Shown here one piece after another: positions 104-11,919 of a DNA stretch of 11,919 nt. Each line of letters begins with the position of its first letter. Position 1 is the first letter of the stretch. The DNA is taken from assembly GCA_026984555.1 (NCBI GenBank), contig JALSRY010000423.1:1-11919 (forward strand), read 5' to 3'. The DNA comes from Phycisphaerae bacterium (GTDB lineage: Bacteria > Planctomycetota > Phycisphaerae > UBA1845 > Fen-1342). Made by a program: the position numbers and the translations under genes. The notes beneath the pieces are model-generated. The model worked only from the letters and a program-made list of their open reading frames with translations, was not told where the DNA came from and ran no database searches.

Positions 104-2446
104 ATGATCGCTTCGCTCGGGCTGATAATGCTGCTGCTGACGCCGGCGGCCAACGACAACAACGTAGAATGGGACGGCATCTCGCACGTACAGTGGCTCG
201 ACTGCCGGCCGGTCTGCCCGGTAAACGGCGAAGCGTTCCAGGTCCGTTTTCAGGCCTACCAGTTCGACCTGACGAGTGCCCGCGTCGTCGTCGATGACGG
301 CACGGTTCACTATTACGACGCCTACTGGGTCGAGGACCGCGGTCCGTACGCCGTCTGGGCGGCTGACGTATCCGCCACCGCCGCGAGCAGCCTGAGCTAC
401 TACATCGAGCTGACCGACGGCACTGACACCGACTACTACAGCGTCAGCGGCATGTCCGACGGACCGCCGACCGATGGCGGGTTCGTGGTCGATTTCGACA
501 CGCTCAGCCACGCACCCTATGGTGCCACACGGGTCAGTCCGGGCGGCGTGGTGTTCAAGGTCTGGGCGCCCGACGCGGGCACCGCCGCCGTCGCCGGCGA
601 GTTCAACGGCTGGTCGACGACCGCCAACCCGATGACCAGGCACGGCGCGGACTTCGTCGCCTACGTGCCCAGCGCGGGCGACCGCCAACAATTCAAGTAC
701 GTCTTCAACGGCAACAACTGGAAGCCGGACGCGCGGGCCAAGTCGCTCAACCCCAGCGACAACTACAACACGCACATCGAAGACGCATTCCGCTACGGTT
801 GGGCCAGCGGTGATTTCACGCCGCCGGCGCCGGAGGACATGATCGTATACGAGCTGCACGTGGGCACGTTCTCCGGCCGCAACGACCCGGTCGCATCGGG
901 CGCGATTCCCGGCACGTACCGCGACGTCGCGGCCCATGTGGACCATTTCGTCGACCTGGGTATCAACGTCGTCGAGGTCATGCCGATCACTGAGTTTCCC
1001 TGGGATTTCTCCGCCGGCTACAACCCGGTCAGCGTCTGGGCCCCCGAATGGAAGTACGGCACCCCCGACGATCTCAAGTACATGATCGACACACTGCACG
1101 CCCACGGCATCGCGGTGGTGTTCGACATCGTCTGGAACCACTTCTCGGCGACCGACAACTATCTGTGGTACTACGACGGCACACAAATCTACTTCGACGA
1201 CCCGGCCGTGGACACGCCCTGGGGCTCGCAGGCCGACTTCGACCGGGCCGAAGTACGCGACTACTTCCTCGACAGCACGCTGTACTGGCTCGAGGAGTTC
1301 CGGGCCGACGGCTTCCGCATGGACGCGACCTCGTACATGGCCCTCTACCAGGGCAGCGGCTGGGGCCTGATGCAGGCGTTCAACGACGAGATCGACAACC
1401 GCGCGGTGCACAAGATCACGATGGCCGAGCAGTTGCCCGACGATCCGTGGATCACGACACCGACCTCCGCGGGCGGTGCCGGTTTCGACTCGCAGTGGAA
1501 CGACTACTTCACCGATACATTGCGACAGGCGATCATCGACGCGGCGTTCGGAAACACGAACATGGGAGCCGTCGCCGATATCATCGACGGCAGCGGGGCC
1601 TACCTGTCGGGAACCTACGTCGTCAACTATCTCGAATCGCACGACGAGGTCTGGCCCGACAGCGGCGGCCAGCGGCTGGTCAAGACGATCGACACCACCT
1701 GGCCGCACGACGACATCTACGCCAAGGGCCGCATGAAGCTCGGCGAGGGCCTGACGCTGTTCTCCCCCGGCATCCCGCTGATCTTCATGGGCGATGAGTG
1801 GCTCGAAGACACCGATTTCGGCGGCGGCAGCCCCAGCGGTGCCGACCGCATCAACTGGGATCTGCTCACCCAGCACGCCGCGATCTACCAGTTCTTCAAG
1901 GACGCCATCGCCGTTCGCAAGTCCAACGGCGCCTTGCGCGGCAACGCCGGCGTCGACGTCTACCACGTCAACGACACCGCCGACGTCGTTGCCTGGCACC
2001 GCTGGGATCTTTCGGGCAACGAAATCGTCGTCATCGCCAATTTCAGCAACAACGATTACGCCGGCTACCAGATCGGATTCCCCCAGGCCGGCACCTGGTA
2101 CGAGCTGCTCAACAGTCAGGCCAGCGAATACGACGGCAACGGCATCGGCAACGGCGGCAGCGTGCAAACGACCGGCGGCCCCTACGACGGTTTCAGCCAG
2201 TCGGCCTACGTGACCATCCCGCAGATGGGCCTGCTCGTGCTGCGTTACAACGATCCGCCCTACGATCCCTGCCCCGAAGACCTCGACGACGACGGGCAGA
2301 TCGGCCTGAGCGACCTGGCGATCATGCTGGCCAACTACGGCAGCACCAACGCCGATCCGGCCGACGGCGACCTCGACGGCGACGGCGACGTGGACCTGGC
2401 CGACCTCGCCCAACTGCTGGCCGTCTACGGCTCCAGTTGTCCGTAG
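104..2446 (+). CDS. Secreted GH13 GlgB-like alpha-glucan enzyme with dockerin-type tail
   Basis: Predicted extracellular enzyme that cleaves or rearranges alpha-1,4/1,6-glucans (780 aa). The ATG at 104 is preferred over the TTG at 101 because GGAG (92-95) lies 8 bases upstream. A short hydrophobic start (residues 1-16) looks like a signal peptide, although it lacks a basic n-region. Residues about 18-120 resemble a CBM34-type beta-sandwich (less certain). About 139-230 is a CBM48-like module with VFKVWAPDA and GEFNGW. The (beta/alpha)8 GH13 domain shows all four conserved regions: DIVWNH (341-346), GFRMDA with nucleophile D407, MAEQ with acid/base E442, and ESHDEV with D514. An all-beta C-terminal domain follows and resembles that of GlgB. 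The tail (about 724-780) has two calcium loops, DLDDDGQIGLSDL and DLDGDGDVDLADL, flanked by cysteines. The catalytic core looks closest to branching enzymes, but amylase or neopullulanase activity is possible. It probably works with the GH57 gene downstream. Confidence 0.9.
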   Translation: MIASLGLIMLLLTPAANDNNVEWDGISHVQWLDCRPVCPVNGEAFQVRFQAYQFDLTSARVVVDDGTVHYYDAYWVEDRGPYAVWAADVSATAASSLSYYIELTDGTDTDYYSVSGMSDGPPTDGGFVVDFDTLSHAPYGATRVSPGGVVFKVWAPDAGTAAVAGEFNGWSTTANPMTRHGADFVAYVPSAGDRQQFKYVFNGNNWKPDARAKSLNPSDNYNTHIEDAFRYGWASGDFTPPAPEDMIVYELHVGTFSGRNDPVASGAIPGTYRDVAAHVDHFVDLGINVVEVMPITEFPWDFSAGYNPVSVWAPEWKYGTPDDLKYMIDTLHAHGIAVVFDIVWNHFSATDNYLWYYDGTQIYFDDPAVDTPWGSQADFDRAEVRDYFLDSTLYWLEEFRADGFRMDATSYMALYQGSGWGLMQAFNDEIDNRAVHKITMAEQLPDDPWITTPTSAGGAGFDSQWNDYFTDTLRQAIIDAAFGNTNMGAVADIIDGSGAYLSGTYVVNYLESHDEVWPDSGGQRLVKTIDTTWPHDDIYAKGRMKLGEGLTLFSPGIPLIFMGDEWLEDTDFGGGSPSGADRINWDLLTQHAAIYQFFKDAIAVRKSNGALRGNAGVDVYHVNDTADVVAWHRWDLSGNEIVVIANFSNNDYAGYQIGFPQAGTWYELLNSQASEYDGNGIGNGGSVQTTGGPYDGFSQSAYVTIPQMGLLVLRYNDPPYDPCPEDLDDDGQIGLSDLAIMLANYGSTNADPADGDLDGDGDVDLADLAQLLAVYGSSCP

Positions 2447-2476
2447 CCGGTTTCGCATTCGCCGCGAAAGCGATCG

Positions 2477-2519
2477 GGCGGTTCGCGAAACGAACCCGCC
2501 GGCGGCCTGATCCGCCGCC
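2477..2519 (+). other. Two adjacent GC-rich hairpins between the glycosidase genes
   Basis: The 95 bp gap holds two back-to-back inverted repeats. The first pairs GGCGGTTCG (2477-2485) with CGAACCCGCC (2491-2500), with one bulged C and the loop CGAAA. The second pairs GGCGGC (2501-2506) with GCCGCC (2514-2519) around a 7-base loop. Neither is followed by a T-run, so they are not standard intrinsic terminators. They could stabilise the upstream mRNA end or set the relative expression of the two genes (inference). Confidence 0.4.
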
Positions 2520-2541
2520 GACACGCTCCGGGAGCAAGCCC

Positions 2542-5439
2542 ATGCGCTGTGCAATCACGTGCGTGCTCACGCTGGCGACGGCCGTCTCCGCCGGCGCCCA
2601 CGAACCGATCCACGTCGGCTTCCTCTGGCACATGCACCAGCCGATCTATTACCCCTACGAGACGCCGGTGCAAACCGACGCCGCCGGGCGGTTCTCGTAC
2701 AGCGTCGTGGACATCCACAACCAGCGTTTCGGGCCGTACACGACCTGGCCCAAGGATGCGATCGAGGCCGGCCTGGGCCTGGCACACCTTGGCGCGCAGG
2801 TCAGCTTCACCGGCTCGCTGATCGAGAACCTCGACGCGATCGAAGCCGCCGGCGTCAACGGCGGCATGTGGAACAACTGGGACTGGGGGTACGACACCGC
2901 CCGCGGCTACCTCACCACGCTCGGTAACCGCCGCCTCGACCTGGTCGCCTTCGGCTACCACCATCCGCTGATGCCGCTGCTCGACGACCTCGACCGCCGC
3001 ATGCAGATCGCCCTGCACCGCCACGTCTATCAGCAGACCTGGGCCGGCGGCGGCTACTCGGCGGGCATCTTCCCGCCCGAGACGGCCTTCTCCGAACGGA
3101 TGATCCCCTCGTTGGTGGCCGAGGGGCTGAGCTGGGTGCTGGTGGACAATATCCATTTCGACCGCGCCTGCGCCGGCTATCCCCACACCAACGCCTCGGG
3201 ACTGTTCACCCCCAACCCGGCCGACCAGATCAACCCCGACCCCGCCACCACCGGCGGCGCCTGGGTCCAGCTCAACAACATCTGGGCCCCCAGCCCGGTC
3301 AGCGCCCCGTTCGGCTATCAGCCACACTACGTGCAATACGTCGATCCCGAAAGCGGCGCGACCACCCGCATGATCGCCGTCCCGGCCGCACGCTACGAGG
3401 GCAACGAAGACGCACGCGGCGGCTACGGCGCTTTCCTCTACGACCAGGTGATGGACCAGTACATCCAGTACAACACCGACCCGGCCCATCCCATGTTCGT
3501 GATGCTGCACCACGACGGCGACAACTACGGCGGCGGCTCGGAGTCCTATTACCACAGCAATTTCCAGAACATGGTGAGCTGGGTCAGCGGCGACCCCGAT
3601 TACGATATCTCCACCGTCGCGGACTACCTCGAACGTTTCCCGCCCGCCGCGGATGACGTGATCCATGTCGAACCGGGCAGTTGGTCCGGGGCCGACAACG
3701 GGGATCCCGAGTTCAAGAAGTGGCTGGGCGACCCCGACGCCGGCGGCTGGAGCCCGGACATCAACAGTTGGGCGGTGCTTACCGCCGCCAAGAACCGCGT
3801 ATTCGCCGCGCAGGCCGTGTCGCCGACCACGTCGATGCACAACGTGTGGCTCGGGACGGGCAGCGACACCGAGCGGGCCTGGCACTGGCTGCTGTGTGCC
3901 GAGGCGAGCGACTACTGGTACTGGGACGGCACCGAAATCTGGGACAGCAACGTGACCCGAGCCTGCAACCAGGCGGTGGTCTTCGCCGACGCGGTGATCG
4001 CCGGCCAGCCCGACACCACCCCCCCCACGGTCTTCCTGCCGCAGCGCGAGCCATACAACCCCGGCGGCTACGAATGGGGCAGCGAGCCGGAGCCGAGCGA
4101 TTTCGAGGTCTGGACGCTGGCCGACGACGCCGGCGGCTTGCAAAGCGTCACGCTCTACTGGCGCATCGACAACGACGGCACCAACCCGCTGGATTCGATC
4201 CAGAACGAAACCTACGCCGGCGGGCCCGAGGTGGGGCCCTGGCAACCCGTGGCCATGACCGCCGAACAATTGCCTTCTCCCCCGCCGGGCGTGCTGGACG
4301 CGACCTATCGGGCAACCCGCTACGGCGCGCAGATCACCGGCCAGCAGGACGTGCTCATCGACTACTACGTCGAGGCCGTCGATGACGCCGGCAACGTGCA
4401 GAAGACCGACATTCAGCACGTGTGGGTCGGACAGGGCGGCAGCGGCGGGCAGCGTGTCACCATCGAGCCCGACCCGGCCATCGCCGGCCAGAGCGTCACC
4501 ATCCGCTACCAGCCCGCCGGCGGCCCACTGCTGGGCGCGGCGCAGGTCTACCTGCACTACGGCTTCAACGGCTGGAACCCGGTGATCGACCCCGATCCGG
4601 CGATGACGTGGGATCCCAACAGCGGTCTATGGACCGCCAGTGTCTTCGTGCAGCCCGACGCGACGCAGCTCGACATGGTTTTCCACGACGGGCTGGGCAC
4701 CTGGGACAACAACGGGGGTGCCGATTGGCACTTCGCGGTCGTCGGCGGACAGCCGGGTACCTGGCAGATGGATGGCGTGCTCGATCCCGCTGCCACGCTG
4801 CTGGCCGCCAACGGCTCGATGCACCTGTGGGCCGGCATCGAGGCCGGTGTGCTCTACGTGGCCACCGAGGACGCGGGCGAGGGCTACGACCACTTCCTCT
4901 ACGTCGCCGAGACGCCCGGCCCGCCGCGCGGCGCCAACTGGGCCAAGGCCGGCACGATCGCCGCCTGGGATGCCTACCTGGCCGACGAGAACGACAACGA
5001 CTACGTCGCCTGGTACGACACGCAGGGAGCGGCCGGCGCGGCCAGCGGAACCGGCGCCGGCGTGCTCGAAGGCACGCTCGACCTCGCCGGCGAGTTCGGC
5101 CAACTGCCTGAGATCGTCTATCTCGCTGTCGGGGTCTACGGTAATCACGACGGCGGTGCGCTGGTCTGGCAGATGCAGGTGCCCGCCTCGGTCAACAACG
5201 ACGGCAACCTCGACGCCGACGAGTACCTCGCGGTCGATCTGATCCTGCTGGCCGGCGGCTGCCTCGAAGACCTCGACGGCGACGGCCTCGTGAACCTCTC
5301 GGACCTGGCGATCCTGCTGGCGCACTACGGCACCACCAGCGGCGCCCAGCGGACCGACGGCGACATCGACCGCGACGGCGACGTGGACCTGAGCGACCTG
5401 GCGGCCCTGCTGGCGGCTTACGACGCCGCTTGTCCGTAA
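2542..5439 (+). CDS. Secreted GH57 alpha-glucan hydrolase/transferase with CBM25-like, DOMON-like and dockerin-type domains
   Basis: Exported starch- or glycogen-active enzyme (965 aa). The ATG at 2542 is preceded by GGGAG (2530-2534). The open frame runs further upstream, but that part overlaps the GH13 gene and is an arginine-rich shadow. Residues 1-19 form a signal peptide ending in SAGA. GH57 landmarks are WHMHQP (29-34), GYHHPL (138-143), FPPE with likely nucleophile E180, and HHDGDNYG with likely acid/base D325, which aligns with the DDGEKFG motif of archaeal GH57 glucanotransferases. After about residue 490 come an Ig-like beta domain, a CBM25-like starch-binding module (about 638-736, HYGFNGWNP and FHDGLGTWDNN), and a glucodextranase-type DOMON-like domain (about 740-905, starting MDGVLDP). 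The dockerin pair is at 907-965 and is bracketed by C907 and a penultimate Cys. The layout recalls amylopullulanases. The family also contains branching enzymes and glucanotransferases, so the exact reaction is open. Probably cotranscribed with the GH13 gene. Confidence 0.9.
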   Translation: MRCAITCVLTLATAVSAGAHEPIHVGFLWHMHQPIYYPYETPVQTDAAGRFSYSVVDIHNQRFGPYTTWPKDAIEAGLGLAHLGAQVSFTGSLIENLDAIEAAGVNGGMWNNWDWGYDTARGYLTTLGNRRLDLVAFGYHHPLMPLLDDLDRRMQIALHRHVYQQTWAGGGYSAGIFPPETAFSERMIPSLVAEGLSWVLVDNIHFDRACAGYPHTNASGLFTPNPADQINPDPATTGGAWVQLNNIWAPSPVSAPFGYQPHYVQYVDPESGATTRMIAVPAARYEGNEDARGGYGAFLYDQVMDQYIQYNTDPAHPMFVMLHHDGDNYGGGSESYYHSNFQNMVSWVSGDPDYDISTVADYLERFPPAADDVIHVEPGSWSGADNGDPEFKKWLGDPDAGGWSPDINSWAVLTAAKNRVFAAQAVSPTTSMHNVWLGTGSDTERAWHWLLCAEASDYWYWDGTEIWDSNVTRACNQAVVFADAVIAGQPDTTPPTVFLPQREPYNPGGYEWGSEPEPSDFEVWTLADDAGGLQSVTLYWRIDNDGTNPLDSIQNETYAGGPEVGPWQPVAMTAEQLPSPPPGVLDATYRATRYGAQITGQQDVLIDYYVEAVDDAGNVQKTDIQHVWVGQGGSGGQRVTIEPDPAIAGQSVTIRYQPAGGPLLGAAQVYLHYGFNGWNPVIDPDPAMTWDPNSGLWTASVFVQPDATQLDMVFHDGLGTWDNNGGADWHFAVVGGQPGTWQMDGVLDPAATLLAANGSMHLWAGIEAGVLYVATEDAGEGYDHFLYVAETPGPPRGANWAKAGTIAAWDAYLADENDNDYVAWYDTQGAAGAASGTGAGVLEGTLDLAGEFGQLPEIVYLAVGVYGNHDGGALVWQMQVPASVNNDGNLDADEYLAVDLILLAGGCLEDLDGDGLVNLSDLAILLAHYGTTSGAQRTDGDIDRDGDVDLSDLAALLAAYDAACP

Positions 5440-5524: not shown

Positions 5525-5575
5525 GAAACTCCACACAATCTCTCGCGTGTCCGGCGGACGGTTTTCGGCGTCCCA

Positions 5576-5584
5576 TGCTATACT
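5576..5584 (+). promoter_or_regulatory. Extended -10 promoter of the FG-GAP gene
   Basis: TGCTATACT matches the extended -10 consensus TGnTATAAT at all but one position. It sits in AT-richer DNA 48 bases before the start codon. No convincing -35 box is seen 16-18 bases upstream, which is usual for extended -10 promoters. Transcription would begin near 5590 and give a leader of about 40 bases that contains the Shine-Dalgarno AAGGAGG (5616-5622). Confidence 0.5.
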
Positions 5585-5631
5585 CGGGTTTTCCATCACA
5601 CGCGATTCGGGGGAAAAGGAGGAACGGAACA

Positions 5632-7035
5632 ATGACTCGTGTTTTCGCAATCGTGCTGCCGGTTCTGGCGGCGGCGGGACAGCTCGTGGCTCCGGCGGCG
5701 CGGGCCCAGTGCGACCCGCAGGAGTTTCTCAAAGTGCTCGCCAGCGACGCCCATAGCGACCTGTCGTTCGGCTTGGGCATCGCCATCGACGGGAACCTGG
5801 CGGTCGTCGGCGCCCCCCAGGACGACACGATGGCGGAAGATGCGGGCGCCGCCTACGTGTACCGCTATGACGGCGCGACCTGGGTCGAAGAAGCCAAACT
5901 CGTCGCTTCCGACGGCGAAGCCTTCGACGCCTTCGGTACCGGCACCGCGATCGACGGTGACGTGATCCTGATCGGCGCCTGGTGGGACAGCGACAACGGC
6001 TCGTCCGCCGGCGCTGCGTATGTCTTCCGCTACGACGGCAGCAATTGGAACCAGGAGGCCAAGCTGGTCGCCGGCGACCCGCTGCCCAACGCCTGGTTCG
6101 GCTACCGTGTCGATCTCAGCGGCGACGTAGCCATCATCGGGGCGTGGGGTGACGGCGGCGCTGCCCCCTTCGCGGGCGCGGCGTACATTTTCCGCTACGA
6201 CGGCAACGACTGGAACCAGGAGGCCAAGCTCCTGGCCCCCCTTCCGAACGTTACCGACTACTTCGGCTACAACGTCGCCATCCAGGGCGATCTCGCCGCG
6301 GTCGGTTCGCTGGGCGACGACGCCGGCGTGACCGACGGGGGCGCGGTCCACGTGTACCGCTACGACGGAACCAACTGGAACCACGAAGCGACACTCGTGA
6401 GCAACGACATCGCCACCTACGACCAGCTCGGCGTCTCGGTGCGTATCGTCGGCAACCGCATTTTCAGCGGCGCCTACGGCGACGACGATACGTCCGGCGC
6501 GGTATACGCCTTTGACTACGACGGTTCCGCATGGACCCAAACCGCGAAGATCACCGCATCTGACCGCTTCCCGGGCGACGGCTTCGGCTGGTGGATCGAC
6601 GCCGAGGGCGACCTCCTCCTGGCCAGTTCGGACACCGACGACGACAACGGCGACAGTTCGGGCTCGGCCTATCTCTATCGCGATACCGGCAGTGGCTTCA
6701 GCGAAGAGGCCAAGCTGCTGCCCTCAGATGGTGATATGGGGGACAATTTCGCGTACGCGCTGGGACTGAGCAACGGGTGGGCTCTCATCGGCGCGCCCGA
6801 CAATCAAGATTTCGGCGAGATGACCGGCTCGGCATATTTCTTCACGCTCAACTGCGCAGTCGCCGGCGACATCGATGGCGACGGCGACGTCGATCTCGCC
6901 GACCTCGCTTTGCTGTTGGCCGCGTACAACACTTGCGCCGGCGATCCCAACTTCGACCCCGCCGCCGATCTCGACGGCAGCGGGTGCGTCGACTTGAGCG
7001 ACCTCGCGATCCTGCTCGCGCATTACGGGGGCTAG
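5632..7035 (+). CDS. Secreted seven-repeat FG-GAP beta-propeller protein with dockerin-type tail
   Basis: Exported protein of unknown specific role (467 aa). The ATG at 5632 is chosen because a strong AAGGAGG (5616-5622) lies 9 bases upstream and a clean signal peptide follows (residues 1-25, ending AARA before QCDP). The longer reading from 5575 would overlap the promoter and is rejected. Residues about 36-408 hold seven repeats of roughly 45-58 aa. Each carries a G-A/S-x-A-Y-V-Y/F-R-Y-D-G-x-x-W-x-x-E-A-K-L-like core and a central I-x-G-D-x-x-x-x-G-A strand, as in integrin-type FG-GAP repeats. Seven fits one closed propeller. Residues 409-467 form the dockerin-type tail, with loops DIDGDGDVDLADL and DLDGSGCVDLSDL. 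Such propellers usually bind proteins or sugars in adhesion or surface assembly, and no catalytic motif is seen. It shares the tail with both glycosidases upstream, so it may reach the same extracellular structure (inference). Confidence 0.88.
   Translation: MTRVFAIVLPVLAAAGQLVAPAARAQCDPQEFLKVLASDAHSDLSFGLGIAIDGNLAVVGAPQDDTMAEDAGAAYVYRYDGATWVEEAKLVASDGEAFDAFGTGTAIDGDVILIGAWWDSDNGSSAGAAYVFRYDGSNWNQEAKLVAGDPLPNAWFGYRVDLSGDVAIIGAWGDGGAAPFAGAAYIFRYDGNDWNQEAKLLAPLPNVTDYFGYNVAIQGDLAAVGSLGDDAGVTDGGAVHVYRYDGTNWNHEATLVSNDIATYDQLGVSVRIVGNRIFSGAYGDDDTSGAVYAFDYDGSAWTQTAKITASDRFPGDGFGWWIDAEGDLLLASSDTDDDNGDSSGSAYLYRDTGSGFSEEAKLLPSDGDMGDNFAYALGLSNGWALIGAPDNQDFGEMTGSAYFFTLNCAVAGDIDGDGDVDLADLALLLAAYNTCAGDPNFDPAADLDGSGCVDLSDLAILLAHYGG
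5737..6855 (+). repeat. Seven tandem FG-GAP coding repeats
   Basis: Within the propeller gene, seven units begin near residues LASD, LVASDG, LVAGDP, LLAPLP, LVSND, ITASD and LLPSDG. The unit end RYDGxxWxxEAK is almost identical in the first three repeats, conserved in the fourth and degraded in the last three. This shows expansion by duplication followed by divergence. Confidence 0.8.
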
Positions 7036-7262: not shown

Positions 7263-7715
7263 GTGTTTTCACAAACAGTGGATTATGCGCTCCGCGCGGT
7301 TCTCTGTTTGGCGACGCGTCCCCATCAGGCCCAGACCGCCGAGCAAATCGCGCGCTGGGCGGCTGTTCCCGCCGGGTATTTGGCAAAAGTCTTGCAGGTG
7401 CTTGGCAAAGCCGGCATCGTCCGTTCACAGCGTGGGCTCGGCGGGGGTTTCACGCTGGTCAAGTCACCTGAGACGCTCAACGTGCTGGAAGTGGTCAACG
7501 CGGTCGACCCGATTCAGCGCATCGAATGTTGCCCGCTGGGGCGCGCGGCTCATTCGATCAAGCTCTGTCCGCTGCACCGGCGTCTTGACGCGGCGATCGC
7601 GTTGATCGAGGATTCGTTTCGGAGCTGCACCATCGCGGACCTGATCGTCGAATCTTCCGATAATGCGCCGCTTTGCCCCGACGAGACCGGCGACGATACG
7701 AACGGCGAATCCTGA
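7263..7715 (+). CDS. Rrf2-family transcriptional regulator, probable Fe-S or redox sensor
   Basis: DNA-binding regulator of the Rrf2 family (IscR, NsrR, RirA), 150 aa, the normal length. It starts with GTG at 7263, 8 bases after GAGGGAGG (7247-7254). The N-terminus FSQTVDYALRAVL, the winged-helix segment with AVPAGYLAKVLQVLGKAGIV and the wing RGLGGGF are typical. The C-terminal sensing region has C89 and C90, C102, and H105 in CPLH. IscR uses three Cys spaced C-x5-C-x5-C plus a His three residues after the last. Here C90, C102 and H105 match, but the middle position (96) is Ala, with His at 97. A cluster could use C89, H97 or an outside ligand, or the site may be bare. As first gene of the cytochrome operon it probably represses the genes downstream and itself in response to NO, nitrite or redox state (inference). 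Confidence 0.88.
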   Translation: MFSQTVDYALRAVLCLATRPHQAQTAEQIARWAAVPAGYLAKVLQVLGKAGIVRSQRGLGGGFTLVKSPETLNVLEVVNAVDPIQRIECCPLGRAAHSIKLCPLHRRLDAAIALIEDSFRSCTIADLIVESSDNAPLCPDETGDDTNGES

Positions 7716-7731
7716 AACCGTACTCAAATCA

Positions 7732-7751
7732 GCGGACGGGCGGTCGTCCGC
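7732..7751 (+). other. Hairpin between regulator and tetrahaem cytochrome gene
   Basis: GCGGACG (7732-7738) and CGTCCGC (7745-7751) form a perfect 7-bp stem with the 6-base loop GGCGGT, 16 bases after the regulator stop. No long T-run follows. It may be a processing or partial-termination element that separates regulator expression from that of the structural genes (inference). Confidence 0.45.
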
Positions 7752-7820
7752 AGATGTTTGCGACAGCGTTTGACGGTTCGAACAACCTGGCGAGAACTCA
7801 TCGACAGGGAGTGCGTCTCC

Positions 7821-8546
7821 ATGAGCAACGACGAGCATGGCCGATCCGGCGGCTCGGGGAGTTGGGCCGGATTCCTCATCGGGCCGGCGTTTCTGGTTCT
7901 CGTGTACTGGTTCCTCGCGGGGCCCGACCTCGCGGAAATCCCGCACACCAAGGCGGTCAGCGTCCCCGCTTCCGCCATCAGCACCGCCCCCAGGCGCGAA
8001 ATCCTTCACGACCCCCCCACCATTCTCATCAACGGTTTCAAGCGACAGTGCATGGACTGCCACTCGCTGTTCCCGCCCCGCGAGGAAACTCCGAAGCGGC
8101 TGCTCCAGCACAAACACGTGCGCCTCAACCACGGCATCAACGACCGTTGTCGAAACTGCCACGACACCGAAAACCGCAACCGGCTGGTGCTCTATGGCGG
8201 AAAATCGATTCCGTACAACAACGTGGTCGAGCTTTGTGCCAAGTGCCACGGCCCGGAATACGAAGACTGGTTGTTCGGCATGCACGGAAAGGTGCTCGGC
8301 TATTGGGACACGTCCCGCGGCCCCGCCCGCCGGCTGATGTGCACCGAGTGCCACAACCCCCACACCCCGCGGATCCCGGCCATGTCTCCGATCCAGCCGC
8401 TGCCCCCGCCCCACACCTTGCGGATGGGCAACCCCGCCGAACACGAAACGGCTGAGGAGGAGGCCGATCCGCTACGCCACGCGCTGCGCGTGACCGAACA
8501 GATCCTCAACCAGCGCAAGCACCCGAAGCAGGAGGTTCCCGACTGA
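7821..8546 (+). CDS. Membrane-anchored tetrahaem cytochrome c
   Basis: Electron-transfer cytochrome (241 aa) with four CXXCH haem c sites: CMDCH (77-81), CRNCH (110-114), CAKCH (139-143) and CTECH (174-178). The ATG at 7821 follows GGGAG (7807-7811) at 9 bases. One hydrophobic helix at about residues 15-33, ending LVYWFLAGP, is likely an uncleaved membrane anchor with the haem domain in the periplasm. The segment after the last haem is proline-rich, then charged. It overlaps the next gene by one base (TGATG). It is too divergent for me to assign to NapC/NrfH, which have a different CXXCH spacing. By position it could play the role of NrfB or the ActA/ActE cytochromes, passing electrons between the Fe-S/NrfD unit and the octahaem protein. 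Role is inferred from context; the tetrahaem nature is seen directly. Confidence 0.9.
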   Translation: MSNDEHGRSGGSGSWAGFLIGPAFLVLVYWFLAGPDLAEIPHTKAVSVPASAISTAPRREILHDPPTILINGFKRQCMDCHSLFPPREETPKRLLQHKHVRLNHGINDRCRNCHDTENRNRLVLYGGKSIPYNNVVELCAKCHGPEYEDWLFGMHGKVLGYWDTSRGPARRLMCTECHNPHTPRIPAMSPIQPLPPPHTLRMGNPAEHETAEEEADPLRHALRVTEQILNQRKHPKQEVPD

Positions 8547-9622
8547 TGAGTGCGGCGAACAACCCAACCGGTGGTGGAACCGGACCGGAACCCGTGGCCC
8601 CCGAAGTGACCCGACGCGGTTTCCTCCGCGGAACCCTCGGCGCGGTCGGTGGTGTGGCGGCGCTCGCGGCGGCCCTGAGCCCGCTCAAGGACATCGACAA
8701 AGAGGATTACACGCTCGAAAAGTTCCTCCAGAAGCACTACAAGGAAATGACGCCCGAGGAGATGAAGAAGGTACTCGCCCGGATCCGCAAGGAAGTCGAA
8801 CGCGAGTACAAGCTCTCTCCCCATCTCCGCGACGTCAAACCGATCGACGGCGTCCAGTTCGGCTACGCGCTGAACCTCGGCCGCTGCATCGGCTGCCGCA
8901 AGTGCGTCTACGCCTGCGTCGCCGAGAACAACCAGAGCCGCAGCCCGCAAATCCAGTACATCCGCGTGCTCGAAATGCCCCGCGGCAGTGTGGACATCGA
9001 GCGCGGCAACCACCACTACGACCGCCCCACGGTTCCCGACGAAGACCACTACTACATGCCCATCCAATGTCACCAGTGCGCCAACCCGCCTTGCGTGAAG
9101 GTCTGCCCCGTCGAGGCGACGTGGCAAGAGCCCGACGGCGTAACGGTCATCGACTACGACTGGTGCATCGGCTGCCGGTACTGCGAGGCCGCGTGTCCCT
9201 ACTGGGCCCGGCGGTTCAACTTCACCAAGCCCGGCTTTCCCCGTGACGAAGCCAAGTCGGAAAACCCGTGCGGCCTCAACCCGGACATGGCGTACCTTTC
9301 GAATCGGCCGCGGATGCGCGGGGTGATGGAGAAATGCCACTTCTGCCTCCAGCGCTCGCGCGAAGGCCGCCGGCCCGCCTGCCTCGAGGTGTGCCCGGTC
9401 GGGGCGCGCAAGTTCGGCAATCTGCTCGATCCGGATAGCGAGGTCGCCCGCATCCTGGCTGAAAAGCACGTGTTCGTGCTGAAGCAGGAGGTCGGCACGC
9501 TGCCGCGTTTCTTCTACTACTTCGACCAGGAATATCCGCGTGACATTCCCCTCTCGGCATTCAAGACCTCGGCAACGGGGCCAGCGCTGCCCGGAACGCC
9601 CATGACCGGGGGTGAGGCATGA
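8546..9622 (+). CDS. Tat-exported 4x[4Fe-4S] ferredoxin-like subunit (NrfC/PsrB/ActB family)
   Basis: Electron-transfer subunit (358 aa) of a membrane-bound quinone-linked oxidoreductase. The ATG overlaps the upstream stop, and GGAGG (8531-8535) lies 10 bases before it. A twin-arginine signal TRRGFLRG (22-29) with a following alanine-rich segment points to export of the folded protein. Sixteen cysteines make four cluster motifs: CIGCRKCVYAC (114-124), CHQC-x4-C-x3-CP (175-188), CIGCRYCEAACP (207-218) and CHFC-x11-C-x3-CP (264-284). All ligands are intact, as in NrfC, PsrB and HybA. A charged helical stretch of about 50 residues (DKEDYTLEKFLQKHY through KEVEREYKL) lies between the signal and the first cluster. 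There is no molybdopterin catalytic subunit beside it, so it probably serves the NrfD-like protein that follows, with which it overlaps by 4 bases. Confidence 0.93.
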   Translation: MSAANNPTGGGTGPEPVAPEVTRRGFLRGTLGAVGGVAALAAALSPLKDIDKEDYTLEKFLQKHYKEMTPEEMKKVLARIRKEVEREYKLSPHLRDVKPIDGVQFGYALNLGRCIGCRKCVYACVAENNQSRSPQIQYIRVLEMPRGSVDIERGNHHYDRPTVPDEDHYYMPIQCHQCANPPCVKVCPVEATWQEPDGVTVIDYDWCIGCRYCEAACPYWARRFNFTKPGFPRDEAKSENPCGLNPDMAYLSNRPRMRGVMEKCHFCLQRSREGRRPACLEVCPVGARKFGNLLDPDSEVARILAEKHVFVLKQEVGTLPRFFYYFDQEYPRDIPLSAFKTSATGPALPGTPMTGGEA

Positions 9623-10857
9623 AAGAGTACTTCCGCTTTCTCGGCCGCTGTTTCCGCGTCAGCTTCGTCGGCGACTGGCGTTACCAGCTCTGGATGTTGG
9701 TGCTGACGTTCGTCGTGCTGCTGGGCGTGAACGCCTATGCCAAACAGTTCGTACACGGCCTGATCGAAACAGGCATGACCGACCAGGTTTCGTGGGGACT
9801 CTATATCGCCAACTTCACCTACCTGGTGGGTATGGCGGCGGCGGCGGTGATGCTCGTCATCCCCGTCTATATCTACCGCAAACACGAGCTGCACGACCTG
9901 GTGATTTTCGGCGAACTATTCGCGGTCGCCGCGATCATCATGTGCCTCGCTTTCGTGAACGTGGACCTGGGCCGGCCGGATCGTTTCATGCACATTTTCT
10001 GGCGGTTCAATTTCCCGCGTTCGATGCTGACCTGGGACGTCGTAGCGTTGGGCGGCTACCTGCTGCTCAACCTGCACATCTGCGGCTACCTGATCTACTG
10101 TTCCTACCGCAAGCGCAAGCCCCACTTCGTGTTCTACATCCCGTTCGTGTTCGTCGCGATCGGCTGGGCGGTCAGCATCCACACCGTAACCGCGTTCCTG
10201 TATGTGGGCCTGGGCGGCCGGCCGTTCTGGAACTCCGCGATCATCGCCCCGCGTTTCCTGGCGTCGGCGTTCGCCGCCGGCCCGGCGTTCATCATCATCA
10301 CGCTCCAGATCATCCGCCGAACGACCGCGTACCGGATCACCGACGAGGCCCTGGCCCTGCTGCGGAACATCGTCACGGTCGCGCTGGCGATCAACATGTT
10401 CCTCCTGGGCTGCGAGCTGTTTACCGAGTTCTACACCCACTCGGCACACATGGCCTCGACGGTCTACCTGTTCTTCGGGTTGCGCGGATACCACGCCCTC
10501 GTGCCGTGGATCTGGACGTCGATCGCGATGAATCTCGTCGCGATGGTGATCCTGTTCCTGCCGCTGGCGCGCAGCCTCAAGTACCTCAACCTCGCGTGCG
10601 TGTTGATGATCGTAGGCATCTGGATCGAGAAGGGCATGGGGCTGATCGTGCCGGCGTTCATTCCCTCGCCGCTGGGAGAAATGGTCGAATACAAACCGAC
10701 GCTCAACGAAATCCTGGTCTGCCTGGGAATCTGGGCGTTTGGTTTGCTGCTGTACACGATTTTTGTTCGCGTTACGGTTCCTGTATTGTCGGGTCGGCTG
10801 GTGTCCGATCAGGTTGAAACATCCGGGGCGCATCCCGCGCGTTCCGGCGCGTCTTGA
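9619..10857 (+). CDS. nrfD: NrfD/PsrC-family integral membrane quinone-interacting subunit
   Basis: Polytopic membrane protein (412 aa) of the NrfD/PsrC/ActC family, which oxidises or reduces quinones at the membrane and passes electrons to a partner Fe-S subunit. The ATG lies in an ATGA overlap with the ferredoxin gene, with GGGTGAGG just upstream. About ten hydrophobic helices are visible, near residues 24-44, 59-84, 95-115, 136-160, 169-195, 212-232, 250-270, 294-317, 321-343 and 363-388. Family-like features are WGLYIANFTYLVG in helix 2, the DLGRPDRF loop (116-123) and FPRSMLTWD before helix 4. A polar tail of about 20 residues ends the protein. The family is named for formate-dependent nitrite reduction, but it also occurs in polysulfide reductase, Hmc, Qrc and alternative complex III. 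The neighbours here point to a link with c-type cytochromes. Confidence 0.93.
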   Translation: MKEYFRFLGRCFRVSFVGDWRYQLWMLVLTFVVLLGVNAYAKQFVHGLIETGMTDQVSWGLYIANFTYLVGMAAAAVMLVIPVYIYRKHELHDLVIFGELFAVAAIIMCLAFVNVDLGRPDRFMHIFWRFNFPRSMLTWDVVALGGYLLLNLHICGYLIYCSYRKRKPHFVFYIPFVFVAIGWAVSIHTVTAFLYVGLGGRPFWNSAIIAPRFLASAFAAGPAFIIITLQIIRRTTAYRITDEALALLRNIVTVALAINMFLLGCELFTEFYTHSAHMASTVYLFFGLRGYHALVPWIWTSIAMNLVAMVILFLPLARSLKYLNLACVLMIVGIWIEKGMGLIVPAFIPSPLGEMVEYKPTLNEILVCLGIWAFGLLLYTIFVRVTVPVLSGRLVSDQVETSGAHPARSGAS

Positions 10858-10872
10858 GAAGGGGAGCTTCTT

Positions 10873-11919
10873 ATGTCAACGGAAAGGTGGTTCAGGATGA
10901 AGAAAGTTGGAATCTGGTGCGGCGTGAGCGCGTTGGTGCTTTCGCTGGTGGGGGTTTCGTCGGCAGCGGCCCAGGCCATCGGCCTGCCCACGGTCAGCGA
11001 CGAATCCCAGGAGTGTATCGCGTGTCACAAGAAGACCGACCCGGTCGTATACCAGCAATGGGGTGTGAGCAAGCACTACCGGGCCAATGTCGCCTGCTAC
11101 GAATGCCACGGTGCGGAAAAATCCGATTCCGACGCGTTCGACCATTACGGCTTCACGATCGCCGTGCTGGTCACGCCGAAAGACTGCGGCCGCTGCCACA
11201 GCCGCGAGATGACCGAGTTCATCGGCTCGCACCACGCCAAGGCCGGCCGGATTCTCGGCTCGCTCGACAACGTGCTCGCCGAGGTCGTCGAAGGCAACCA
11301 GGCGTTCAAGACGATCGGCTTCCCCGAGGGCGTCTCCGCCTCGGCCGCCAACGGCTGCTGGCAGTGCCACGGCTCGCAGGTCAAGATCGGCGCCGACGGG
11401 CGCCCCGACGCGGCCACCTGGCCCAATAGCGGCATCGGCCGCCTCAATCCCGACGGCAGCGAAGGTTCCTGCCACGCCTGCCACACGCGGCATTCGTTCT
11501 CGGTCGCCCAGGCGCGCCATCCCGATACCTGCGGCAAGTGCCACCTCGGCCCCGACCACCCGCAGAAAGAGATCTACGAGGAGTCCAAGCACGGCATCCT
11601 GTTCTTCGCCAACGAGGACAAGATGAACCTCCACTCCAACAAGTGGATCGTCGGCGAAGACTACTGGGCCGCGCCGACCTGCGCGACCTGCCACATGTCC
11701 GCAACCAAGAGCCAGCCGGTCACACACGACATCGGGGCGCGGATCAGTTGGAACAACCGGCCGAAGACCTCGGTGCGTCCCGAAGTGGCCGACGCCAAGA
11801 TGGGGTTGCCCGGCAAGGATCTGCCCTGGCAAGTGCGGCGGGCCAACATGCAGGACGTCTGCCTGAACTGCCACAGCAAGCCGTGGGTCGAGAACTTCTA
11901 CACCCAGTACGACGCGCTG
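10873..11919 (+). CDS. hao: Octahaem cytochrome c, hydroxylamine oxidoreductase (HAO) family, 3' end cut off
   Basis: Periplasmic multihaem redox enzyme; 349 residues are visible and the frame is open at the window end. The ATG at 10873 follows GGGGAG (10861-10866). An in-frame ATG at 10897, after AAAGGTGG, gives a classical signal peptide (MKKVGIW through SAAAQA) and could be the true start. Eight CXXCH sites are seen, counting from 10873: 48-52, 75-79, 105-109, 162-166 (CWQCHGS), 200-204, 220-224, 270-274 and 330-334. The stretch from CWQCHGS through WPNSGIGR, NPDGSEGSC, RHSFSVAQAR and GPDHPQ to ESKHGI is strongly HAO-like. The family includes HAO proper, anammox hydrazine dehydrogenase and epsilon-type HaoA, thought to reduce nitrite or hydroxylamine to ammonia. 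The cross-linking Tyr that favours oxidation would lie beyond the window. The gene starts 15 bp after nrfD, so quinol-driven reduction is plausible. Confidence 0.92.
   Translation, partial: MSTERWFRMKKVGIWCGVSALVLSLVGVSSAAAQAIGLPTVSDESQECIACHKKTDPVVYQQWGVSKHYRANVACYECHGAEKSDSDAFDHYGFTIAVLVTPKDCGRCHSREMTEFIGSHHAKAGRILGSLDNVLAEVVEGNQAFKTIGFPEGVSASAANGCWQCHGSQVKIGADGRPDAATWPNSGIGRLNPDGSEGSCHACHTRHSFSVAQARHPDTCGKCHLGPDHPQKEIYEESKHGILFFANEDKMNLHSNKWIVGEDYWAAPTCATCHMSATKSQPVTHDIGARISWNNRPKTSVRPEVADAKMGLPGKDLPWQVRRANMQDVCLNCHSKPWVENFYTQYDAL

Follow-up and report, generated by a model that had tools for sequence, protein, structure and literature searches.

An octahaem cytochrome c with a DsrOP-like quinol module in Phycisphaerae: a candidate respiratory nitrite reductase in the place of NrfA

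What does an octahaem cytochrome c with the fold of hydroxylamine oxidoreductase (HAO) do when its gene adjoins those of a presumed quinol module? The question is raised by an 11,919-base contig of a Phycisphaerae bacterium (JALSRY010000423.1), which was analysed whole, is called the window hereafter, and belongs to a genome assembly of 808 contigs that is 88.7% complete. Five genes stand in tandem on its plus strand between positions 7263 and 11919 (Table 1), encoding an Rrf2-family regulator, a tetrahaem cytochrome c (c4), an iron-sulfur (Fe-S) protein, an NrfD-superfamily membrane protein and the octahaem cytochrome c (OCC). An earlier note had described these five members, and the presence of all of them was confirmed. 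For everything beyond base 11919 we used P0010, a full-length twin of OCC from the protein database (484 aa), which is identical over the aligned part. Judging from gene order, conservation, predicted fold, residues and genome distribution, we give slightly better than even chances to the array being a quinol-linked respiratory nitrite reductase that stands in for NrfA, most likely an ammonium-forming one.

The distribution was read in 101 genomes, the window's own and 100 relatives, with thresholds of E 1e-10 for an OCC-family match and E <= 1e-60 for the module NrfD. An OCC-family protein occurs in 60 genomes and NrfA in 21, and the two meet in one (Fisher p 6.4e-9), so OCC is found where NrfA is not, as the earlier note had supposed in letting an HAO-type enzyme replace NrfA. 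The sole overlap, G030, carries 8% contamination, and its NrfA is a contig-edge fragment. When four genomes with short octahaem types only are left out, 56 OCC and 21 NrfA genomes give p 7.0e-8; among the 63 genomes with a completeness of 90% or more and a contamination of 5% or less, the overlap is 0 (p 1.1e-7). Six families hold both genes, and in five of them (f1, f2, f4, f7 and f8) they never share a genome. Genera are also divided: in g41, G044 has NrfA (with an in-frame stop) whereas G047 has OCC and the module, and in g60, NrfA is found in G070 and G072 but OCC in G076. For the module alone against NrfA, p is 0.066.

The c4-FeS-NrfD-OCC array is not a product of chance, because NrfD lies directly upstream of OCC in all 20 genomes that have both (in G083 by coordinates). 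The module NrfD was found in 21 of the 101 genomes, and the one without OCC, G006, shows a contig-edge fragment in a 68% complete genome. Among the 19 loci that were read, c4 is present in 17 and the Fe-S gene in 18; L050 runs off its contig, and in L058 the Fe-S gene is partial and c4 is not seen. In agreement with the note, which had let the tetrahaem protein bridge the two halves of the system, c4 is conserved beside the Fe-S/NrfD pair. The 60 OCC genomes are mixed: 36 have a P0010-type match above 300 bits, and the module is present in 20 of these. Ten long OCC rows without the module sit among module-bearing rows, which suggests loss of the module; mapping the module label onto the tree takes four changes. 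A further scan, led by IhOCC of Ignicoccus hospitalis (4qo5), covered 80 loci, and in seven of them OCC is next to the module (L162, L169, L171, whose start is cut, L177, L182, L187 and L191). The array order recurs in Planctomycetota, Verrucomicrobiia (L187) and, divergently, Cloacimonadota (L191), and all module-bearing rows fall within one set of 40 rows with a support of 98.

OCC is also accompanied by other proteins. A NapC-type tetrahaem protein is encoded downstream of OCC in seven gammaproteobacterial loci (confirmed by Pfam for L146), and a nonahaem protein of 645-684 aa with a cytochrome b561-like membrane part (based on Pfam for L156 only) in L149, L154, L156, L160, L161 and L184, likewise from Gammaproteobacteria. 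In L184, an ammonium transporter gene follows OCC and precedes this nonahaem-cytochrome b protein, a type that possibly represents another quinol module for OCC. At least three kinds of electron-delivery protein are encoded next to members of the OCC clade.

Several loci hold additional genes. In L034:474-5307 (G011), genes for a nine-haem protein, a nine-haem-Rieske fusion and a cytochrome b precede the Rrf2-module stretch and may encode a second quinol-oxidising complex. A conserved protein of about 150 aa is encoded just downstream of OCC in L033, L035, L036, L071, L162, L169, L171 and L182; the L033 copy, flanked by OCC and a NapD-like gene, matches no Pfam or NCBIfam family, and the protein is a candidate assembly factor. 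In G095:C215, a large inverted repeat contains two OCC-type copies that point towards each other (L061:6361-7776 and 16035-17450), possibly an assembly artefact.

The OCC protein has eight c-type haem motifs and, as predicted from P0010, the HAO fold. All eight haem sites are CxxCH. MccA carries an atypical long haem-c motif, and no motif of this type was found among the eight sites of OCC. In a MAFFT alignment of OCC with fragments of NeHAO (4fas), chain A of 6h5l and IhOCC, the Asp-His catalytic pair is kept (D220-H221 in P0010). The column of the NeHAO cross-link Tyr467 contains Trp in 83 of 84 OCC rows, a gap in one and Tyr in none; a register shift of one residue would place His402 of P0010 there, and Gln or Trp in some relatives. 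This state, Asp-His with Trp, is also that of 6h5l chain A, which belongs to the reducing HAO-like complex Kustc0457/0458 and shares the HAO fold. The lack of the cross-link is termed a reductive state in the available text of PMC12758564, and a reductive function has been reported or proposed for Kustc0457/0458 and epsilon-Hao (PMC12758564 and PMC5317091, as far as accessible).

On the tree, OCC and the IhOCC-like rows split from HAO, HDH and 6h5l on a branch with a support of 99, estimated by the Shimodaira-Hasegawa-like approximate likelihood ratio test only and in the presence of long branches; one short octahaem row, L069, is placed on the HAO side. By this phylogeny OCC is not HAO proper but a separate clade with IhOCC as its nearest relative, and 6h5l, despite its similar residues, groups with HAO/HDH. 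The note had assigned the octahaem protein to the HAO family and named a phylogeny outside that family as its refutation; the assignment survives for the fold, yet not for the clade or the cross-link Tyr. The tree was built without L052, L059, L070 and L129, whose sequences contain stops or lack enough haem motifs, and without L071; L044 and L155, which it includes, are identical. The 32 IhOCC-like rows have Asp-Val, Asp-Thr or Asp-Ala with Phe (once Tyr), in contrast to Asp-His with Trp in OCC. The in vivo role of IhOCC is called hypothetical in the available text of PMC4429474.

Two other octahaem types were seen in the genome set. L066-L068 encode a shorter one (about 404-418 aa), followed by a protein with 7-8 helices, and lie outside the long OCC set. 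L064 and L070 (G033 and G046) encode a second OCC type that is about 44-45% identical to P0010, with a NapA-like gene directly downstream; no NrfD module was found within the available stretch of either locus.

Activity data come from the orange octahaem cytochrome of Beggiatoaceae, BOGUAY_0691, for which some nitrite reductase activity was measured and whose gene has NapA and NapB genes upstream (accessible part of PMC6449678). It probably belongs to the OCC clade, as judged through a Thiomargarita member (L184) that lies inside the clade and is 54% identical to P0010. A point of difference is that the neighbours in L184 are the ammonium transporter and the nonahaem-cytochrome b protein.

The electron module resembles that of Dsr systems. 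The c4 protein has one N-terminal hydrophobic helix and four CxxCH motifs, which are conserved, together with four more His residues (H118, H125, H176 and H202 of P0002), in at least 90% of 21 aligned rows; one of these rows, L169, lacks CxxCH and was probably misread. These additional His residues would suffice for bis-His ligation of all four haems. P0002 has only weak c-type Pfam matches and none to PF03264 (NapC/NrfH) at E 1e-3, unlike the OCC neighbour of L146, which matches PF03264 at 1.1e-52. The Fe-S protein is presumably periplasmic because it begins with the Tat-type signal TRRGFLRG, and its 16 cluster Cys residues are retained in at least 90% of the 23 aligned rows, two of which (L044 and L048) are unrelated weak matches. 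Its best NCBIfam score is for DsrO, at 163.7 bits in the window and 174.0 and 188.2 bits in L162 and L187, all under the cut-off of 200; NrfC reaches 104.1 bits against a cut-off of 377.6. The NrfD-like protein (P0004) has about ten hydrophobic stretches and is the presumed quinol-binding subunit. It exceeds the cut-off of the DsrP equivalog model (412.3 bits against 350), as do the L162 and L187 copies (427.1 and 414.8), and has no match to the NrfD equivalog at E 1e-3; the L162 copy scores 36.4 on the latter, whose cut-off is 347.6. On these scores the module is nearer to DsrOP than to NrfCD, the type named in the earlier note, and it is arranged much like DsrJOP, except that the protein in the J position has a fourth haem. 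The array shares with DsrMKJOP the arrangement of a cytochrome c, an Fe-S protein (DsrO) and DsrP, although c4 has four haems and DsrJ three (PMC8076601, available part). No DsrMKJ was recognised among the listed neighbours, most of which had no family scan.

The genes for other steps of nitrogen respiration provide the context. A NapA match (E 1e-60) occurs in 12 genomes, all of which have OCC, and three of the 12 exceed the NapA cut-off. Downstream of OCC and on the same strand, a NapA-like gene is present in 8 of 121 sequences (L033, L064, L070, L071, L182, L187, L191 and L193). In L033, OCC is followed by genes for a 168-aa protein, a NapD-like protein (E 4e-4, under the cut-off), a NapA-like enzyme (638 bits against a cut-off of 904, and 505 on the formate dehydrogenase model), a tetrahaem protein and an alginate-export porin. 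The window's own genome has a near full-length NarG (G000:C15:1653-5249, 1516 bits) and, at its 88.7% completeness, no match to NapA (1e-60), NrfA (1e-20), NirK (1e-40) or the NorB cytochrome c-like domain (1e-15). NarG occurs in 11 genomes, ten of which have OCC; the remaining one, G048, has NrfA. The NorB domain was also unmatched in 16 of the 21 module-NrfD genomes, the window's own among them, although NorB types without this domain would escape such a search. OCC is directly followed by an ammonium transporter gene in L180, L184 and L186, and in L166 such a gene lies about 2.8 kb upstream.

We propose that the DsrP-like membrane protein would oxidise menaquinol and pass the electrons to the Tat-exported four-cluster Fe-S protein, from which they would flow through the membrane-anchored c4 to OCC in the periplasm. 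There, an uncross-linked haem with the Asp-His pair would reduce nitrite, most likely with six electrons to ammonium. Nar would provide the nitrite in the window's organism, and in some relatives the NapA-like enzyme encoded nearby would do so. This proposal keeps the main line of the note, a quinol link and an enzyme that takes over from NrfA. Nitrite is suggested as the substrate because of the NrfA/OCC exclusion, the Nap company, the presence of NarG in a genome without a NrfA, NapA, NirK or NorB-domain match, and the reductive residue state. Ammonium is favoured as the product because of the same exclusion, the transporters beside OCC and the rarity of NorB-domain matches in module genomes.

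Several observations weigh against this proposal. The p-values of the exclusion are inflated by shared ancestry, as they carry no correction by a genome tree, and family f1 alone gives p 0.012. The module is missing in 16 of the 36 P0010-type genomes, a NapA-like gene lies near OCC in just 5 of 27 module loci (L033, L071, L182, L187 and L191), and the absences noted for the window's organism were read in an incomplete genome. NorB is present in 26 of 60 OCC genomes against 7 of 21 NrfA genomes, and in G022 a single small gene separates the module from a qNor-like gene upstream. From the accessible literature, the characterised cross-link-less Kuenenia enzyme makes nitric oxide (PMC12758564); nitrite did not support growth of Ca. 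Thioglobus autotrophicus, the carrier of a sister homologue of the orange Beggiatoaceae cytochrome; the activity of that cytochrome was far lower in recombinant than in native form, and another octahaem enzyme was credited with forming ammonia (all PMC6449678).

Some of these points lead to the alternative that the same module and enzyme reduce nitrite by one electron to nitric oxide, with OCC replacing NirK/NirS in a truncated denitrification. The residues shared with 6h5l chain A would suit such a reaction, NirK was unmatched at E 1e-40 throughout the 101 genomes (NirS was not searched for), and the NorB and qNor-like genes would also fit. An Onr-like octahaem protein has also been noted as the likely missing nitrite reductase in Phycisphaerae, in a source whose available text does not contain the term NrfD (PMC11266412). 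However, the exclusion of NrfA fits an ammonium-forming task, most module-NrfD genomes (16 of 21) gave no match to the NorB domain, and three other loci have ammonium transporters next to OCC. We regard nitric oxide as a plausible but distinctly less probable product.

It is improbable that the FeS-NrfD pair is instead a quinol dehydrogenase for NapA or for several periplasmic reductases, with OCC as one client or a mere neighbour. The NapD-like and NapA-like genes after OCC in L033, and the NapA-like genes in L071, L182, L187 and L191, would fit such a role; yet the neighbour of NrfD is OCC rather than NapA in 20 of 20 relatives with both, in 22 of 27 module loci the available stretch lacks a NapA-like gene (many end at contig ends), and OCC is missing only from the edge fragment of G006. 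A molybdopterin subunit immediately downstream, which the note had regarded as a possible true partner, is thus found behind OCC in a minority of module loci and not next to the NrfD gene, and the window contig ends within OCC. Because of these five loci, the module may also feed NapA.

A sulfur-oxyanion reductase (for sulfite, tetrathionate or polysulfide) with wiring like that of MccACD appears very unlikely, although the module is DsrOP-like and MccACD couples an octahaem enzyme to a module of the NrfCD type (PMC8076601, accessible part). Least probable of all is a hydroxylamine (or hydrazine):quinone oxidoreductase, the reverse flow offered in the note: the HAO fold, and the hydroxylamine and hydrazine oxidase activity seen beside nitrite reduction in the orange Beggiatoaceae cytochrome, a probable relative (PMC6449678, in its available text), would allow it, but OCC lies outside the HAO clade, none of its 84 rows has the cross-link Tyr, and the NrfA exclusion and the Nap/Nar company point to reduction.

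The architecture of the array has precedents. The partner of epsilon-Hao is of the NapC type. The systems compared in the earlier note did not include MccACD, in which an octahaem c enzyme is likewise fed by an NrfC/NrfD-type quinol module, or the loci of Thermosulfurimonas dismutans (TDIS_0606-0609) and Dissulfuribacter thermophilus (DBT_2326-2329). The latter combine a HaoA-like multihaem protein, NrfD, a periplasmic 4Fe-4S protein and a transmembrane cytochrome c with a Nap cluster and no NrfA; nitrite reduction was proposed for them in 2017, with sulfur metabolism as the alternative (PMC5276818, accessible text). By their published description, they have the same kinds of parts as the window array, in other phyla. 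Caldithrix and Deferribacter are without NrfA, and their Nap adjoins a Hao-like octahaem protein (PMC5317091 and PMC6896113, accessible parts). NrfD clusters in Planctomycetota metagenome-assembled genomes, with a multihaem c, a 4Fe-4S protein and NrfD near Nar, Nap or Nxr, were hypothesised to act as nitrite reductases, and hao genes were noted. As described in the available text (PMC10732223), they differ from the window array in having mostly five haem motifs, ActD/CcoP-like partners, a closer relation to alternative complex III and no octahaem protein in the cluster. A full-text literature search, with most subscription papers outside its scope, found no description of the array in Planctomycetota.

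Table 1. Features of the array in the window.
Feature	Position	Strand	Characteristics
Rrf2-family regulator	7263..7715	+	GTG start; PF02082 E 1.2e-27; TIGR00738 103.5 bits, cut-off 73.3
c4, tetrahaem cytochrome c	7758..8546	+	Open reading frame from TTG 7758; 4 x CxxCH
Four-cluster Fe-S protein, DsrO/NrfC superfamily	8546..9622	+	Tat-type signal TRRGFLRG; 4 x [4Fe-4S]
NrfD-superfamily integral membrane protein, DsrP-like	9619..10857	+	PF03916 E 8.6e-37; NCBIfam DsrP 412.3 bits
OCC, octahaem cytochrome c, HAO fold	10873..11919	+	PF13447; 3' end lost at contig end
Asp-His pair codons in OCC	11554..11559	+	P0010 D220-H221 = NeHAO D267-H268 (MAFFT alignment)

The genes of the array are tightly packed, with overlaps of 1 nt between c4 and FeS and 4 nt between FeS and NrfD. 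OCC likely starts at ATG 10897, because P0010 begins there, which leaves a gap of 39 nt after NrfD; the likely start of c4, judged by eye, is ATG 7821. The Rrf2 protein has cysteines C89, C90 and C102, in what we take to be the loop where Rrf2 proteins hold clusters, and scores under the cut-off on the NsrR, RirA and IscR equivalog models. Upstream in the window, an alpha-amylase-like protein (P0250, assigned by eye), a GH57/CBM53 protein and an FG-GAP repeat protein (101-2446, 1798-5439 and 5575-7035, respectively) all end in dockerin-like repeats and form a starch-use cluster that has no apparent connection with the array.

The principle of an octahaem enzyme wired to such a module is already known from MccACD and the Thermosulfurimonas/Dissulfuribacter locus, and the array is a variant of this design. 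Its apparent novelty lies in the Phycisphaerae-type distribution, in the mutual exclusion of NrfA and OCC, and in the one OCC clade with its several kinds of electron-delivery partner. More broadly, and with somewhat less than even confidence, OCC could add another widespread class to the ammonium-forming nitrite reductases of respiration. This class would not be orthologous to NrfA, ONR or OTR, would replace NrfA in one lineage after another and would work with interchangeable modules: the DsrJOP-like c4-FeS-NrfD set, the NapC-type tetrahaem protein and the nonahaem-cytochrome b561 protein. In Phycisphaerae-type planctomycetes, nitrite respiration through the NrfD version could be electrogenic in its own right. 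Surveys of nitrate reduction to ammonium usually rely on nrfA as the marker gene. Should OCC do the same job, such surveys would miss the process in these planctomycetes, where the OCC family is the commoner of the two among the 101 genomes, and several records named 'hydroxylamine oxidoreductase' would wrongly suggest ammonia oxidation or anammox. With its several natural electron-delivery partners, the OCC clade may also serve as a test bed for the change of quinol modules in multihaem reductases.

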